Origin: Falseniella ignava CCUG 37419
GTDB lineage: Bacteria; Bacillota; Bacilli; Lactobacillales; Aerococcaceae
NCBI RefSeq assembly: GCF_000301055.1
Contig: NZ_JH932300.1
Span: 270,876 to 303,927 of the forward strand
DNA: 33,052 nucleotides
Direction: 5' to 3'
This document shows positions 1,553 to 24,202 of this stretch, piece by piece. Within the stretch, counting starts at the first letter, position 1. Each line of letters starts with the position of its first letter. The notes below the pieces were generated by a model. The model worked only from the letters and a program-made list of their open reading frames with translations, was not told the DNA's origin and made no database searches. A program made the translations under genes and the position numbers.

Positions 1553-3301
1553 TTGAATAAACCCTATACAAAGCGTCAATGGGGGATTTTTATCCTATTA
1601 CTAGGTTTACTGACTGGTGGTGTGCTTTATGCCTCAATCCATACTTTTGTTCAAGAGGATGTGACCTACCAAGTCTCACAATGGTTGCAGACCTTTGTGA
1701 AAAATCCTTTTGACACAAGTGATTTACATTATTCAAAAATGGAGCTTGACTTAACCCCTGAAGGTGGATTTTTAGTCAAGCGAATGAAAGATGACTATCT
1801 TGAGGTAGGCGTTAGTAACCGTGAGAAAGAATCACTCATCGCTCAAGTTGTTTCAAGCGATCAAATGCGTTCACTGCCGGCAGGGTTAACCGAAGATGAG
1901 CTCCCATGGTTCTATAATAGTCCTCAAGTTGCAAAAGATTCTCCGTATTCTTATGCGAATCAATATCGATTAGTAGAGGATGAGGGAATTAATGAATTAA
2001 GATGGTATGAATATCAAGGTAAGAGATATTTATTCCAGGATGATAGACTTTATACAGGTTGGCACCAAGATACAGATGGAGAATACCTTTATTATAATCA
2101 AGGTGTGATCCAACCAACTTCTTTAAGTCAAGATGATTTGGATAACTTTATTGAGCAAAGCAGAATTATCAAGCAACTTTCCCCGTCAATCGGCAAGTCA
2201 TTATTTTTTGAGCGAAACCAAGATGACTATAAGCAAATGTATTCACTAAAATCGAATCATTATAGCATATTATATAAAGCAACCGATCAATTGATTCTCT
2301 CATCGCCTCCGGGTACTCGAGGATCTGTATTAGTCGCTTCAACGAAGAATTTCTACGATATGCCACTTGAAGTCGTTGAAGAATATCGAAGTGAAAACCA
2401 AGTTTGGTTGCATGTTATGGTGGGCTATGATGAATTAGGCTGGATACAACAAGACCTATCGAGAACACACTATGTCCCAACGTATTACAGTGAACGAACA
2501 CTGCTTGATACGATTGAAGCTGTGTTACAAGAAGAAGTGGATAGTATTGCGGCAGACGTAGGAGCATCATTTATTAATAATGAAACGATGGCTCAAGTGA
2601 GCGTCAATGATCATCCGTTTTTCCCGGCCAGTACTCAGAAGATTTATGTGCTTGGGGAGTTATATCATCAATATCGAACGGGTGAATTAGACCCTTATCA
2701 AGTGGTCACGCTCTATGATTCCGATCGTGTCCCTGGAGCTGGTATCATTCAAGGATATCCGACCGGCAGCCAATTTTATATTGATGAATTAGTGGATTTA
2801 GTGGCAATTTACTCGGATAATACTGCAGCCAATATGTTAATTGATACGGTCGGAGGCGGCGAGAAAATAAACCCAAGACTTCAACAAATCGGACTCTTCG
2901 ATACCTATGTTTATGGCAAGTATTATGGAGAAGATACTTACTTAACGACCACCCCTTCTGATGCTGCACGATTTTTTGCTTTACTATACAATAATCGTCT
3001 AAATGGCGAGCCCTACGACGATATGCTAGTTAATAAATTATTTATGAACACACATACTTTTCTGAGAAGTTATCTTTATGGTGGAGCGACAACTTCATAT
3101 AATAAGTCTGGACTCGGTTCAAGCGAACAAAATGATGTGGCAACTTTTATTACGCCTTATGGTTCTTATTCGCTCGCAGTTTATACGGCATACCCTGCCA
3201 ACTATGACACTATTGCGGACAGCTTAGCAATGTTATCACTGCGTGTTCACGACGCGTTCAATGAAGTACGTTCTGACTTATGGATTAAAGTGGAAGAATA
3301 A
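1553..3301 (+). CDS. Membrane-anchored beta-lactamase-fold serine hydrolase with SH3/GW-like domain
   Basis: 582 aa. An N-terminal membrane segment (about residues 9-31) follows a short basic tail, so the bulk should face outside. The middle (about 170-310) has GW/SH3-like stretches (GWHQDTDGEYLYY, VGYDELGWIQQD). The C-terminal 260 residues hold the three motifs of class A beta-lactamase and low-molecular-weight penicillin-binding proteins: S360-T-Q-K363, S421-D-N423 and K518-S-G520. The start is TTG at 1553, supported by AGAGGAGG at 1537-1544 with 8 nt spacing. It is the second gene of an operon and is followed by a terminator. It could be a peptidoglycan-acting peptidase or a true beta-lactamase; the extra wall-binding-like region favours cell-wall work. 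Confidence 0.8.
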   Translation: MNKPYTKRQWGIFILLLGLLTGGVLYASIHTFVQEDVTYQVSQWLQTFVKNPFDTSDLHYSKMELDLTPEGGFLVKRMKDDYLEVGVSNREKESLIAQVVSSDQMRSLPAGLTEDELPWFYNSPQVAKDSPYSYANQYRLVEDEGINELRWYEYQGKRYLFQDDRLYTGWHQDTDGEYLYYNQGVIQPTSLSQDDLDNFIEQSRIIKQLSPSIGKSLFFERNQDDYKQMYSLKSNHYSILYKATDQLILSSPPGTRGSVLVASTKNFYDMPLEVVEEYRSENQVWLHVMVGYDELGWIQQDLSRTHYVPTYYSERTLLDTIEAVLQEEVDSIAADVGASFINNETMAQVSVNDHPFFPASTQKIYVLGELYHQYRTGELDPYQVVTLYDSDRVPGAGIIQGYPTGSQFYIDELVDLVAIYSDNTAANMLIDTVGGGEKINPRLQQIGLFDTYVYGKYYGEDTYLTTTPSDAARFFALLYNNRLNGEPYDDMLVNKLFMNTHTFLRSYLYGGATTSYNKSGLGSSEQNDVATFITPYGSYSLAVYTAYPANYDTIADSLAMLSLRVHDAFNEVRSDLWIKVEE

Positions 3302-20089: not shown

Positions 20090-20115
20090 AAAGCAGGCTG
20101 AATTCAGCCTGCTTT
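20090..20115. terminator. Bidirectional terminator (perfect palindrome)
   Basis: AAAGCAGGCTGAA pairs with TTCAGCCTGCTTT with no unpaired centre. It lies between the convergent C39-like and NADH peroxidase genes. Confidence 0.85.
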
Positions 20116-20142: not shown

Positions 20143-21507
20143 TTAAAAGAGTAATTTATCTGCACCACTGAATGGCCAGTCGAGCGCTGCCATTGCTAGT
20201 ACATTGAGGTAATGCCATGGACGGTCAAAGTTAGGTTGGAAATGAATATCCGCTAACGCTAACTGTTCTAAGGTCCACTCGCTTGAAATCGCAATCGATA
20301 GGGCAACAATTCCATCAGAGATATCGTGCTTACTCATCAATTGTCCACCTAAAATACGGTGAGACTCCGCATCATAGAAGATTTTCATCATAATTTCATT
20401 GTCCTCTTGACGCATAAAGTCTGGATAGCGTTTCTCTACAACATAAGTACTTGCGACTTCACCATCATATTGATCGACATTGGATGAAGATAGGCCGGTT
20501 GTTACAAAGTTATAATCGAAGTAACGTAAGGCAGAAGTTCCATTCATAGATGGCATCTTCATTGGATGGCCTAATGCGTTCATGGCTGCGACAACCCCTT
20601 GGCGACGCGCCATCGTTGCCAGAGCAATTGGGAATGGCTTACCAGTTGGACCGTATGGAATATAGGTTGAGTCCCCGCCTGCGTAGACATCGTCGGCAGA
20701 AGTTTGTAAGTATTCGTCCACTTCAATGTAGCCATGATCATCCATCTTCAAGGTATCTTTCAACCAGCCTGCGTCTGGTTTCACACCCATTGATAGAACG
20801 ACTAGGTCCGCAGTGTATTCACCTTTATCAGTTACAACCGATTGAACGTGTCCTGCTTCATTGCCGGTGAATTGCTCAACGCGCTCGCCACCGACAAATT
20901 TAACACCTTTTTGACGTGCATGTTCTGTTAAAATATCGGTAAACTCAGTATCTAAGTAAGTGTTTAAAATGCGGTCTGCTAAGTCAACAATCGTTGTTTC
21001 GATGCCTTCGAGTGCTAAAGCTTCCGCAACTTCTAGCCCGATGTAGCCACCGCCGACAACGACTGCTGTTTTTGCAGTCTTCATCGCGTCTTTCACAGCT
21101 TGCGTATCTTCTGGGCCACGGAACGTTGTAATGCCATCAAGGTCTACACCTTCAAGAGGTGGTTTCACAGCCACTCCACCAGGGCTAAGTAATAATTTGT
21201 CGTATGATTCCTGATGTTCGCCTTCGTGGTCTTTCACCGTAACGGTCTTCGCTCCTGGATTTACGCCGATAACATCGCTGCCACAGTGAATATGGATGCC
21301 TTGTGCTGCATAAGATGCTTTATTGGCAAAGTGTAATTCGTCTAAGCTCTTAGAGGTCCCCTCTATATAAGACTGGCTACCTCAACCCATAAATGACGCA
21401 TCATCACCACGTTCGTATAAATGGATTTCAGCTTGAGGTTCTTGCTTTAATAGGGTCTGCACTACTTCGTAACCGAAGTGAGAGGTCCCAACTACTATGT
21501 ATTTCAT
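20143..21507 (-). CDS. NADH peroxidase/oxidase with in-frame TGA at the catalytic Cys42 (candidate selenoprotein, or pseudogene)
   Basis: Reading from ATG 21507 (AAGGAGGAG just upstream) there are 454 codons before the final TAA, the usual length of flavin-dependent NADH peroxidase (Npr), NADH oxidase and CoA-disulfide reductase. The N-terminus MKYIVVGTSHFGYE holds the FAD-binding turn and the active-site His10. The second nucleotide-binding motif is VVVGGGYIGLE, the FAD-contact segment is VYAGGDST, and the C-terminal dimer interface contains ILGGQLMSKHDIS and FDRPWHYLN, close to Enterococcus Npr. The only in-frame stop is TGA at 21384-21382, codon 42. There the family has its redox cysteine (SFLSCGMQ in Npr; here SFMG-stop-GSQSY). 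A possible SECIS hairpin follows. If UGA is read as selenocysteine, the enzyme is an intact selenol peroxidase. If not, only 41 residues are made and this is a one-base pseudogene. Confidence 0.85.
21348..21372 (-). promoter_or_regulatory. Candidate bacterial SECIS hairpin downstream of the in-frame TGA
   Basis: Read on the minus strand: TCTT, a 4-nt bulge ATAT, AGAGG, loop GGA, CCTCT, AAGA. This gives a 5-bp upper stem and a 4-bp lower stem; a further AGC/GCT pairing can extend it. The apical loop starts 22 nt after the TGA (21384-21382) and its first base is G. As I recall the published bacterial SECIS pattern, the loop lies about 16-37 nt after UGA with a G in its first two positions, so this fits. 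A random hairpin of this size is not rare. Confidence 0.4.
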
Positions 21508-21749: not shown

Positions 21750-22100
21750 ATGAACCAACATTACAATATTCAATTTCACGACCAGGCGATTGGGCGTGAG
21801 AAAGAGATTCTTGACCTATTGACCAAGGTGATTGACCCTGAGCTTGGAATCGATATCGTCAATATGGGACTGATCTATGAAGTTACCTTAGATGAAGCCG
21901 GCAAATGCTCAGTCATTATGACACTGACTACGATGGGGTGCCCGTTGGTCGATTATATTGTCGGAGATATTAAATTTGCTTTAGAGCACCTACCAGGAGT
22001 TGAGACGGTGGAGTGCCAGATTACGTTTGACCCACCATGGGACTTGACTAAAATGTCACGCTACGCACGGATTGCGCTCGGCATTCCAATGAACGGCTAA
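21750..22100 (+). CDS. sufT: SufT-like DUF59/MIP18 iron-sulfur assembly factor
   Basis: 116 aa. The DUF59 domain fills the protein: VIDPELGIDIVNMGLIYEV, then LTTMGCPLVDYI with the conserved Cys64, then VETVECQITFDPPWD. Members (SufT, PaaD-like and eukaryotic MIP18) help mature or deliver Fe-S clusters. It is the first gene of the SUF operon, 34 nt before sufC, with GGAGGGG before its ATG. In many Firmicutes this gene lies at the end of, or apart from, the suf cluster; here it leads. The symbol is given on family and context. Confidence 0.85.
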   Translation: MNQHYNIQFHDQAIGREKEILDLLTKVIDPELGIDIVNMGLIYEVTLDEAGKCSVIMTLTTMGCPLVDYIVGDIKFALEHLPGVETVECQITFDPPWDLTKMSRYARIALGIPMNG

Positions 22101-22134
22101 CACAAACTGAATTTAGATAAGAAGGAGTATGACG

Positions 22135-22911
22135 ATGTCTACATTAGAAATTATTGATTTACATGTTGAAGTTGAAGGCAAAGCAATTTTAAAAGGCGTT
22201 AATTTAAAGATGTCTAGCGGAGAAATTCATGCCATTATGGGACCGAACGGAACTGGGAAGTCTACCTTGGCTCAAGCCATTATGGGGCATCCTGCTTATA
22301 AAGTTACGCAAGGCCAAGTCCTTTTAGACGGTCAAAATATTTTAGAACTAGAAGTGAACGAACGCGCTAAAGCAGGACTGTTTTTAGCGGTACAATACCC
22401 AAGTGAAATAACTGGCGTCACCAATGCGGAATTTATCCGCGCAGCGATCAATGCGCAGCGTGAAGAAGGCGACAGCATCGGTGTGATGGAATTTATTCAA
22501 AAATTAGATGAGAAGATGGCGCTGCTCGATATGAAGGAAGAAATGGCAGAACGCTACTTGAATGAAGGTTTCTCAGGCGGAGAGAAAAAGCGTAATGAGA
22601 TTTTGCAAATGCTAATGATTGAACCGAAATTTGCGATTTTAGATGAGATTGACTCAGGTCTTGATATTGATGCGTTGCGTCTAGTGGCCAATGGGATTCA
22701 TAGTATGGAACGCGATGACTTTGGCGCGTTAATTATTACGCACTACCAACGTTTATTGGATTATATCGAGCCAGACTTTGTCCATATTATGATGGACGGT
22801 CGAGTGGTTGTGACCGGTGACAAAGCGTTAGCCGTTCAATTGGAAGCCGACGGTTACCGTGGTTTAGCAGAAGAATTGAATCTCGATCTGTCCCAAGAGG
22901 AGGGGTTGTAA
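22135..22911 (+). CDS. sufC: SufC, Fe-S assembly ATPase
   Basis: 258 aa from ATG 22135. Walker A is GPNGTGKST (36-44), the ABC signature is FSGGEKKRNEIL and Walker B is FAILDEIDSGLDIDAL, all characteristic of SufC. It powers the SufBCD scaffold that assembles Fe-S clusters in the cytoplasm. An earlier ATG at 22129 is in frame but sits 1 nt from the GAAGGAG ribosome site, so 22135 is preferred. Only 1 nt separates its stop from sufD. Confidence 0.97.
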   Translation: MSTLEIIDLHVEVEGKAILKGVNLKMSSGEIHAIMGPNGTGKSTLAQAIMGHPAYKVTQGQVLLDGQNILELEVNERAKAGLFLAVQYPSEITGVTNAEFIRAAINAQREEGDSIGVMEFIQKLDEKMALLDMKEEMAERYLNEGFSGGEKKRNEILQMLMIEPKFAILDEIDSGLDIDALRLVANGIHSMERDDFGALIITHYQRLLDYIEPDFVHIMMDGRVVVTGDKALAVQLEADGYRGLAEELNLDLSQEEGL

Positions 22912-22912
22912 G

Positions 22913-24202
22913 ATGTTAGCATCATTTCAACAAGCCTGTCAAATTGCCCAAGTCGCAAGCCAAGCGAACGAGCCGCAATGGTTGCTCGACCGCCGTCAAG
23001 AATCGGCAGATTTATATGAAAGCTTACCTTATCCCAAAGTCGAACGGGGTAAAATTTCTCGGACGTTCGACTTAACATCAGGCTATGAACGCGGAGAGCA
23101 TGAAGTGCCGGCGAATCTATTAGACCAAGTTAAATCTACTTCAGAAGAAGTGGCAGCAAACATCACCTTATTCCATAATCAATTGATCCATCGCGAACTC
23201 GCTCCGGAACTGGCTGAAGCGGGTGTTCTGCTTCTAACGCTCGAAGAAGCGATGCAACAACCTAAATTAATCGAACAATGGCTGATGACGCAAGCCTTGC
23301 CGTACCAACATGATAAATATGCTGCTTTGCATCAAGCGTTAATGAGCAGTGGCGTCGTTGTTTATTTACCAAAAGGCGTGCAAATTGAACGGGCGGTACA
23401 AGTTCACTTAATCCAAGATGCCCGAACGCCGTCGTCTTATCACCCACACATTTTAATCGTGGCGGAAGAACAAAGTGCGATGCAATATATGGAACGTTTA
23501 TCAAGCGTTGGCGAAGCACCAAGTAATGCGACTATTGTAACAGAAATCATTACGCAACCAGCGAGCCGTATTCAATATGCAGCGATTGACTCGATGGGCG
23601 AATCCATCACGACTTACTTGCGTCGTAACGCCTACCAATTGCGCGATAGCCAAATTGATTGGGCGGTCGGTGCTTTAAATAATGGAACGACGATTTCAGA
23701 TTATAATGTTGACTTACACGGTGAAGCAAGCCAATCCGAAGTCAAAATTGTCTCAATTACTCACGGTGAACAAAAGCATGTCATTGATACGAAAGTAACG
23801 AATTATGCCAACCATAGTGACGGGGAAATTTTCCAACATGGAGTCGTATTGGACCAATCAACCTTAACGATGAACGGAATTGGTCATATTATTAAGGGAT
23901 CCAAAGATGCGAACTCCCAACAAGAATCTCGTATTTTGATGTTATCGGATGAATCGCGTGGCGATGCGAACCCAATCTTATTGATTGATGAATTTGAAGT
24001 CCAAGCAGGACACGCTGCTTCGGTAGGTCAGCTAGATCCTGTCCAACTGTTTTACTTAATGAGTCGCGGACTTACACGTAAACAAGCTGAACGATTAGTG
24101 ATCCGTGGCTTCTTAGGTCAAGTTATCCAAGCAATTCCGCTAGCGGAAGACCGTGAAGCTTTAATCGAATCGATCGAACAGAAGTTGGCGACGTTAGCAT
24201 GA
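22913..24202 (+). CDS. sufD: SufD, Fe-S scaffold subunit
   Basis: 429 aa. The beta-helix core typical of SufB/SufD is seen in the stretches HILIVAEEQSAMQYME, VDLHGEASQSEVKIVS and GIGHIIKGSKDANSQQESRILMLSD. The C-terminal helical part contains EVQAGHAASVGQLDPVQLFYLMSRGL with the conserved His. It pairs with SufB and SufC as the cluster-building scaffold. GAGGAGGGG at the end of sufC provides the ribosome site. Its stop TGA overlaps the sufS start (ATGA), a sign of translational coupling; TGA is thus a normal stop in this genome. Confidence 0.97.
   Translation: MLASFQQACQIAQVASQANEPQWLLDRRQESADLYESLPYPKVERGKISRTFDLTSGYERGEHEVPANLLDQVKSTSEEVAANITLFHNQLIHRELAPELAEAGVLLLTLEEAMQQPKLIEQWLMTQALPYQHDKYAALHQALMSSGVVVYLPKGVQIERAVQVHLIQDARTPSSYHPHILIVAEEQSAMQYMERLSSVGEAPSNATIVTEIITQPASRIQYAAIDSMGESITTYLRRNAYQLRDSQIDWAVGALNNGTTISDYNVDLHGEASQSEVKIVSITHGEQKHVIDTKVTNYANHSDGEIFQHGVVLDQSTLTMNGIGHIIKGSKDANSQQESRILMLSDESRGDANPILLIDEFEVQAGHAASVGQLDPVQLFYLMSRGLTRKQAERLVIRGFLGQVIQAIPLAEDREALIESIEQKLATLA

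Follow-up and report, generated by a model that had tools for sequence, protein, structure and literature searches.

A predicted selenocysteine-containing NADH peroxidase in Falseniella ignava and related cocci

The window analysed here is a stretch of 33,052 nucleotides from Falseniella ignava CCUG 37419 (contig NZ_JH932300.1, positions 270,876 to 303,927). Its minus strand carries npr, whose features are listed in Table 1 together with those of a related locus from Dolosicoccus paucivorans. Translation of the entire frame confirmed what the initial annotation had reported, namely that the gene is interrupted by a single in-frame stop, the TGA of codon 42, and that no second stop precedes the terminal TAA. 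In a plain listing of open reading frames (ORFs), npr appears only as a 364-residue fragment starting at position 21237. Codons 7–12, and with them His10, would be missing from any product whose translation restarted beyond the TGA. UGA also serves as an ordinary stop in the window, as had been pointed out for sufD (ORF 22913–24202), and it terminates 1 of 22 ORFs (picked from the 35 listed, with the npr frame counted whole). The SUF genes are divergent from npr (21750–24202); sufC and sufD scored above their cut-offs, and the gene for a SUF-associated protein at the start of this run scored below its own.

Table 1. Positions of features at the npr locus of the window and on the D. paucivorans contig.
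Feature	Position	Strand or contig	Remarks
Npr gene (NADH peroxidase-like FAD/NAD enzyme)	20143..21507	minus	454 codons + TAA; TGA codon 42 read, by prediction, as selenocysteine
Codon 42 TGA (UGA), catalytic cysteine position	21382..21384	minus	translation, PDB alignment, relatives
Codons 7–12, GTSHFG, including His10	21472..21489	minus	5' of the TGA; translation, alignment
SECIS-like hairpin UAGAGG-GGA-CCUCUA (candidate)	21351..21365	minus	6 bp, GGA loop, starts 16 nt 3' of the TGA
Terminator-like inverted repeat between convergent gene ends	20090..20115	listed on plus	weak: 1 found, 1.2 expected (shuffles)
npr(TGA)	418–1782	D. paucivorans contig L068	
tRNA-Sec	1817–1913	D. paucivorans contig L068	
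selD(TGA)	2021–3055	D. paucivorans contig L068	
selB	from about 3082	D. paucivorans contig L068	
selA	to 6343	D. paucivorans contig L068	followed by cytidine deaminase
Cytidine deaminase gene		D. paucivorans contig L068	after selA

The protein encoded by the full frame matched the Pfam families Pyr_redox_2 (PF07992), Pyr_redox (PF00070) and Pyr_redox_dim (PF02852), all above their cut-offs, and thus has the FAD/NAD domains and the dimerisation domain of NADH peroxidase. In a phmmer search of the PDB, its residues 1–442 aligned with the NADH peroxidase chains 1joa/1npx at 368.6 bits, and codon 42 fell on the cysteine of the motif SFLSCG. We take 1joa and 1npx to be Enterococcus faecalis NADH peroxidase (Npx), and the SFLSCG cysteine and His10 to have their presumed catalytic roles in that enzyme. 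The likeness to E. faecalis Npx (1joa, 1npx, 2npx) extends over residues 1–442 and includes His10 and the column of residue 42, which is Cys in Npx and UGA in the window gene. His10, which had been described as conserved, is present in the window protein and invariant in 8/8 aligned sequences.

A survey of 76 genomes of the family, 75 of which hold some relative at E 1e-40, identified a full-length TGA-bearing relative in eight genomes, always with the TGA at codon 42 (TGA42). These are the window's own genome and seven that a scan of a named collection identified, namely Facklamia languida, F. hominis, D. paucivorans, Aerococcus sp. HMSC062A02, F. lactis, F. miroungae and Facklamia sp. 7083-14-GEN3. 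All 23 further close homologues read in the family have TGT or TGC at codon 42. The named-collection scan relied on two short patterns derived from selenocysteine (Sec) proteins and is hence biased, so that its yield of 13 loci, 12 with TGA42 and one with TGT, is not a frequency; the TGT locus belongs to Aerococcaceae bacterium DSM 111020. Five of the 12 TGA42 loci are from Gemella (G. sanguinis, G. cuniculi, two G. haemolysans and Gemella sp. GH3), which brings the total to 13 distinct genomes. Among 398 sampled Bacilli genomes, 11 passed E 1e-150 and an internal TGA was seen in the window's alone, a result that says little about frequency because the other known TGA42 genomes are absent from these 11. 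Relatives were also found in 158 plasmid records, every one of them below 60% identity. In G. cuniculi, unlike in the window, npr lies between groEL and a GTP cyclohydrolase I-like gene, both identified by eye.

The presence of TGA at codon 42 coincides with the presence of SelA. SelA scored above the cut-off in 11 of the 76 family genomes, that is, in all eight with TGA42 and in three of the other 68 (Fisher p = 9e-9, uncorrected for kinship). It was also found in 5/5 Gemella genomes with TGA42 and was absent from DSM 111020, the source of the sole Cys locus in the named-collection scan. Since the 13 TGA42 genomes represent few lineages, these counts are not independent. Comparison of relatives had been proposed as a check on the selenocysteine reading, and its outcome is a mixture of TGA and Cys codons in which TGA is seen only alongside SelA. 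TGA is common to the relatives that use Sec and Cys to those that do not, with the exception of the SelA genomes G068 and G069, which have a TGA-bearing grdA, yet keep Cys in Npr. Judging from these two genomes, an organism that uses Sec need not have it in Npr. In the remaining SelA genome discussed here, G018, the only Npr relative is a distant one, 40% identical and without a stop.

The selD gene has a TGA in 13/13 TGA42 genomes and a Cys codon in G018, G068 and G069 (loci L083, L084 and L085); the Sec/Cys states of SelD and Npr change together. In the five Gemella sel loci (L126–L130), selA and selB are separated by about 1.2 kb, and in two of them this gap gave a weak SelA-like match, perhaps a selenocysteine lyase-like PLP enzyme.

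The assembly to which the window belongs (1.77 Mb, 6 contigs, 97.9% complete) was searched for selA, selB, selD and tRNA-Sec, as the initial annotation had suggested, and all four were found. The tRNA-Sec, with anticodon TCA, scored 70.3 bits against a gathering score of 47, SelB 338.7 bits (cut-off 242), SelA 592 bits (cut-off 268) and SelD 365 bits (cut-off 125). Three further genes of this genome carry a TGA of their own: selD in the context CGG-U-SAK, grdA in CFV-U and grdB in ST-U-GTC. The identities of SelD, GrdA, GrdB and SelB were confirmed by NCBIfam. A TGA-bearing grdA also occurs in nine other family genomes and in the five Gemella. Given the sel genes, the tRNA-Sec and the TGA-bearing selD, grdA and grdB, decoding of UGA as Sec is therefore very probably in use in this genome. 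The glycine reductase locus (contig 2, 674000–692000) also contains IS-like transposase genes and holds grdB, grdE, selD, selB, selA, grdA, grdC and grdD; the names grdC, grdD and grdE are our presumed assignments.

Selection on the sequence beyond the TGA was estimated from pairs of genes. dS was computable in two of the four pairs tried, both from Facklamia, and dN/dS after codon 42 was 0.057/1.30 and 0.160/1.95, or about 0.04 and 0.08. Purifying selection acts on the sequence 3' of the TGA. In all four pairs the 41 residues before the TGA were 85–93% identical, compared with 64–91% for the rest of the protein. The first 41 residues are thus kept at least as well as the remainder, a degree of conservation that would be superfluous if translation restarted beyond the TGA.

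Taken together, the machinery genes, the TGA at the catalytic column, its co-occurrence with SelA and the selection after it support the selenocysteine reading put forward initially, as does the linkage of npr to the decoding genes in D. paucivorans described below. Judged from these sequence data, the gene very likely encodes a selenocysteine-containing NADH peroxidase, referred to below as U-Npr.

One element of the initial description has to be corrected. Both flanks of the TGA had been called fully conserved, but residues 40–41 (codons at 21390–21385 of the window) differ between TGA and Cys proteins. They are Met-Gly in 11/12 TGA proteins and Met-Ser in that of Dolosicoccus, versus Leu-Ser in 27 of 31 Cys proteins, E. 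faecalis Npx having Leu40-Ser41 where U-Npr has Met40-Gly41; the remaining four Cys proteins have Met-Ser. Met40 is therefore common to all 12 Sec proteins and to these four (from genomes G032, G077, G078 and G027, the first being DSM 111020). Gly41, present in 11/12 Sec proteins, contrasts with Ser41 in all 31 Cys proteins, and this replacement may be an adaptation to selenium at the neighbouring residue.

A tree of 43 proteins, from which locus L125 was left out and in which Dolosicoccus forms a long branch, accounts for the TGA rows with no fewer than two Cys/Sec changes. One group (support 100/99) is formed by the copies from the window, Aerococcus and Gemella. The adjoining group (99/98) unites the Facklamia copies with a sister clade of Cys proteins, the same four that share Met40, and SelA had no match in the four genomes of this clade. 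This topology fits more than one gain of Sec as well as a reversion to Cys that followed the loss of the machinery.

In the window, the TGA is followed by a short hairpin that resembles a bacterial SECIS element. The corresponding motif was defined by at least five pairs with at most one G-U, a loop of 3–5 bases in which GG starts at position 1 or 2, and a loop start at 17–31 counted from the T of the TGA; synonymous shuffles of each gene served as the null. It occurred after the TGA in 12/12 genes, against 1.64 expected, and in 2/23 Cys genes, against 1.74 expected, figures to be read with the facts that the motif is short, that it was set after some of the hairpins had been seen and that related genes are not independent. 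One G. haemolysans copy (L099), identical to the other (L098) over 60 nt, was left out of both this test and the tree, and distant paralogues were dropped before counting. In a control that left out the Gemella grdA, the motif followed the TGA of grdB in 6/6 distinct sequences (0.78 expected), of selD in 5/13 (0.18 expected) and, with weaker enrichment, of grdA in 3/10 (0.86 expected). Within the window's genome, grdA and grdB carry the motif and selD does not.

Folding gave a less uniform picture. The hairpin was part of the minimum-energy fold (4–5 of the inner five pairs) in 10/12 genes at 60 nt and in 9/12 at 48 nt, the Aerococcus and F. languida sequences adopting another fold at both lengths. 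The window's hairpin is present in the 60-nt fold and absent from the 48-nt fold, and the 60-nt fold is not unusually stable compared with shuffles (z -0.27). Covariation amounts to one pair, G-C to U-A, within the window-Aerococcus-Gemella group, and 30 of 500 shuffles scored as high. The motif sits in two registers, its loop lying 5–6 bases earlier in five Facklamia copies and in Dolosicoccus. All six have the Leu codon CTG at the loop of the earlier register; CTG was found at that place in 0/23 Cys genes and accounts for 5.8% of all Leu codons when the genes are pooled. The hairpin is a candidate for the element that would guide SelB to codon 42.

Selenocysteine-containing relatives have been predicted before. 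A Sec 'NADH oxidase' was listed for Geobacter metallireducens in a 2006 survey (PMC1794560) and later appeared as 'FAD-dependent oxidoreductase (CoA-disulfide reductase, NADH oxidase)' (PMC9312934), with the motif UGxP according to a 2026 review (PMC13188914). This protein, WP_011365774.1, belongs to the same superfamily as U-Npr, and in both Sec is followed by Gly. It differs by its family model (TIGR03385), by its phylum and by its motif, UGxP, where U-Npr has UGSQ, UGAQ or UGLA; the two Sec residues would presumably occupy the same column. The Global Ocean Sampling selenoproteome (PMC2398784) contains one predicted Sec 'NADH oxidase' (PRK09564, the CoA-disulfide reductase model in NCBIfam naming), which is of the same superfamily and comes from a marine metagenome. 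The Sec subtype of type III sulfide:quinone reductase (NF049943) is likewise a flavin-dependent oxidoreductase selenoprotein (PMC13188914); it belongs to another family, has the motif HxxU and is apparently the COG1252 Ndh protein of PMC12013277. Hence Sec in the CoA-disulfide reductase/'NADH oxidase' superfamily is already known, as a prediction. U-Npr would be the Sec form of an established enzyme and would add a new branch to a selenoprotein family on which little has been published.

As regards the Lactobacillales, two surveys name E. faecalis as the only SelD-bearing member in 2006, without Sec genes (PMC1794560), and Lacticigenium naphtae for selenouridine in 2016 (PMC5029168). Among the open-licence papers listed in our searches, none described Sec in NADH peroxidase or its use by Facklamia, Gemella or Aerococcus, an absence that is not proof; none for Dolosicoccus surfaced in these searches, which were made on the enzyme and the other genera. 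Such a protein gave no word match in PMC10298544 and PMC5330540 and is not named in the available parts of PMC12013277 and PMC5029168.

Decay of the gene through a nonsense mutation, or an error of sequencing, could also explain the TGA, as TGT or TGC becomes TGA by one base change and the window has an ORF that ends in this codon. We rejected it on finding the same TGA in 12 further genomes from four other genera. Moreover, the internal stop is always one and always at codon 42, dN/dS after it is low in both Facklamia pairs, and it is found solely where SelA exists; this account is hardly tenable. A base error at codon 42 is very unlikely because the same TGA is present in 13 separate genomes. 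The UGA might otherwise be read as cysteine or another amino acid, by suppression or by a UGA-decoding tRNA other than tRNA-Sec, which would agree with the Cys that fills this column in relatives without Sec. The tRNA-Sec is, however, the sole tRNA with a TCA anticodon in the genomic stretches scanned, SelA, SelD and TGA-bearing grdA and grdB are all present, and SelD itself contains a TGA in each of the 13 genomes, so that decoding by anything other than Sec appears improbable.

A different question is which reaction the selenoprotein would catalyse. NADH oxidase and NADH peroxidase share the catalytic cysteine, so that this residue fits either substrate. The protein could instead form water as an NADH oxidase, or act as a reductase of CoA disulfide or persulfide: its best NCBIfam match was the NADH oxidase NF046103 (356.6 bits, under the cut-off of 600), followed by the CoA-disulfide reductase TIGR03385 (296.3 bits, under the cut-off of 578.8), and the predicted Geobacter relative is filed under these two activities. 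On the other hand, the six best PDB matches were all NADH peroxidase, at 364–369 bits, compared with 310 for the best NADH oxidase, and a second paralogue in the window's genome, 34% identical, could be the oxidase. We consider the oxidase or reductase alternative unlikely, and homology suggests peroxidase rather than oxidase activity for U-Npr.

By analogy with known families, from which the insertion route, the peroxidase cycle and the likely benefit are all carried over, U-Npr could be made and work as follows. SelD would make selenophosphate and SelA would convert Ser-tRNA-Sec to Sec-tRNA-Sec, which SelB would bring to UGA codon 42 with the help of the hairpin, whose GG loop starts about 16–22 nt after the UGA; translation would then continue to the TAA. 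The selenolate of Sec42, beside FAD and His10, would attack H2O2 to give a selenenic acid, and NADH-reduced FAD would turn it back to the selenolate. Faster reaction and resistance to overoxidation are the gains likely to come with Sec.

If this prediction is true, an H2O2-reducing flavoenzyme with a selenium catalytic residue joins the list of selenoproteins, in cocci such as Facklamia, Gemella and Aerococcus, for whose use of Sec no account turned up in the literature searched. The natural occurrence of Sec and Cys forms among close relatives would then make the benefit of selenium over sulfur directly testable, and plain ORF calling would cut short what is probably a working antioxidant gene.

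In D. paucivorans, npr and the decoding genes lie side by side on one contig of 8,078 bases (L068, 1–8078), in the order npr(TGA), tRNA-Sec, selD(TGA), selB and selA. Transposase-like fragments were recognised by eye at both ends of this contig. The right-hand fragment has 16 matches in the genome, itself included, and marks a multi-copy insertion sequence (IS) next to the block; the five IS loci compared end inside the IS and give no view of the left end of L068. GrdA, which all 10 other SelA-bearing family genomes and all five Gemella have, was not found in this draft of about 110 contigs, and because of this Npr, with SelD, may alone sustain Sec decoding in D. paucivorans. It is conceivable, although on balance we lean slightly against the proposal, that U-Npr is a new selenoprotein family able to travel with its own decoding system, in a block that may move as a unit, and that it has this sustaining role.

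Regulation of npr by PerR was considered with a site score built on what we take to be the PerR-box consensus, and was rejected: among the 12 genes tried, the best site of the window was at chance (a third of shuffles reach it), and no clear site was seen upstream of npr in the window or in Gemella. PerR-box-like sites were observed about 30–45 bases before the start in Facklamia sp. 7083-14-GEN3, F. hominis and Aerococcus sp. HMSC062A02. The best of them, in Facklamia sp. 7083-14-GEN3, agrees with the consensus at 14 of 15 positions when N is scored as agreement, a level reached by 1 of 300 shuffles.
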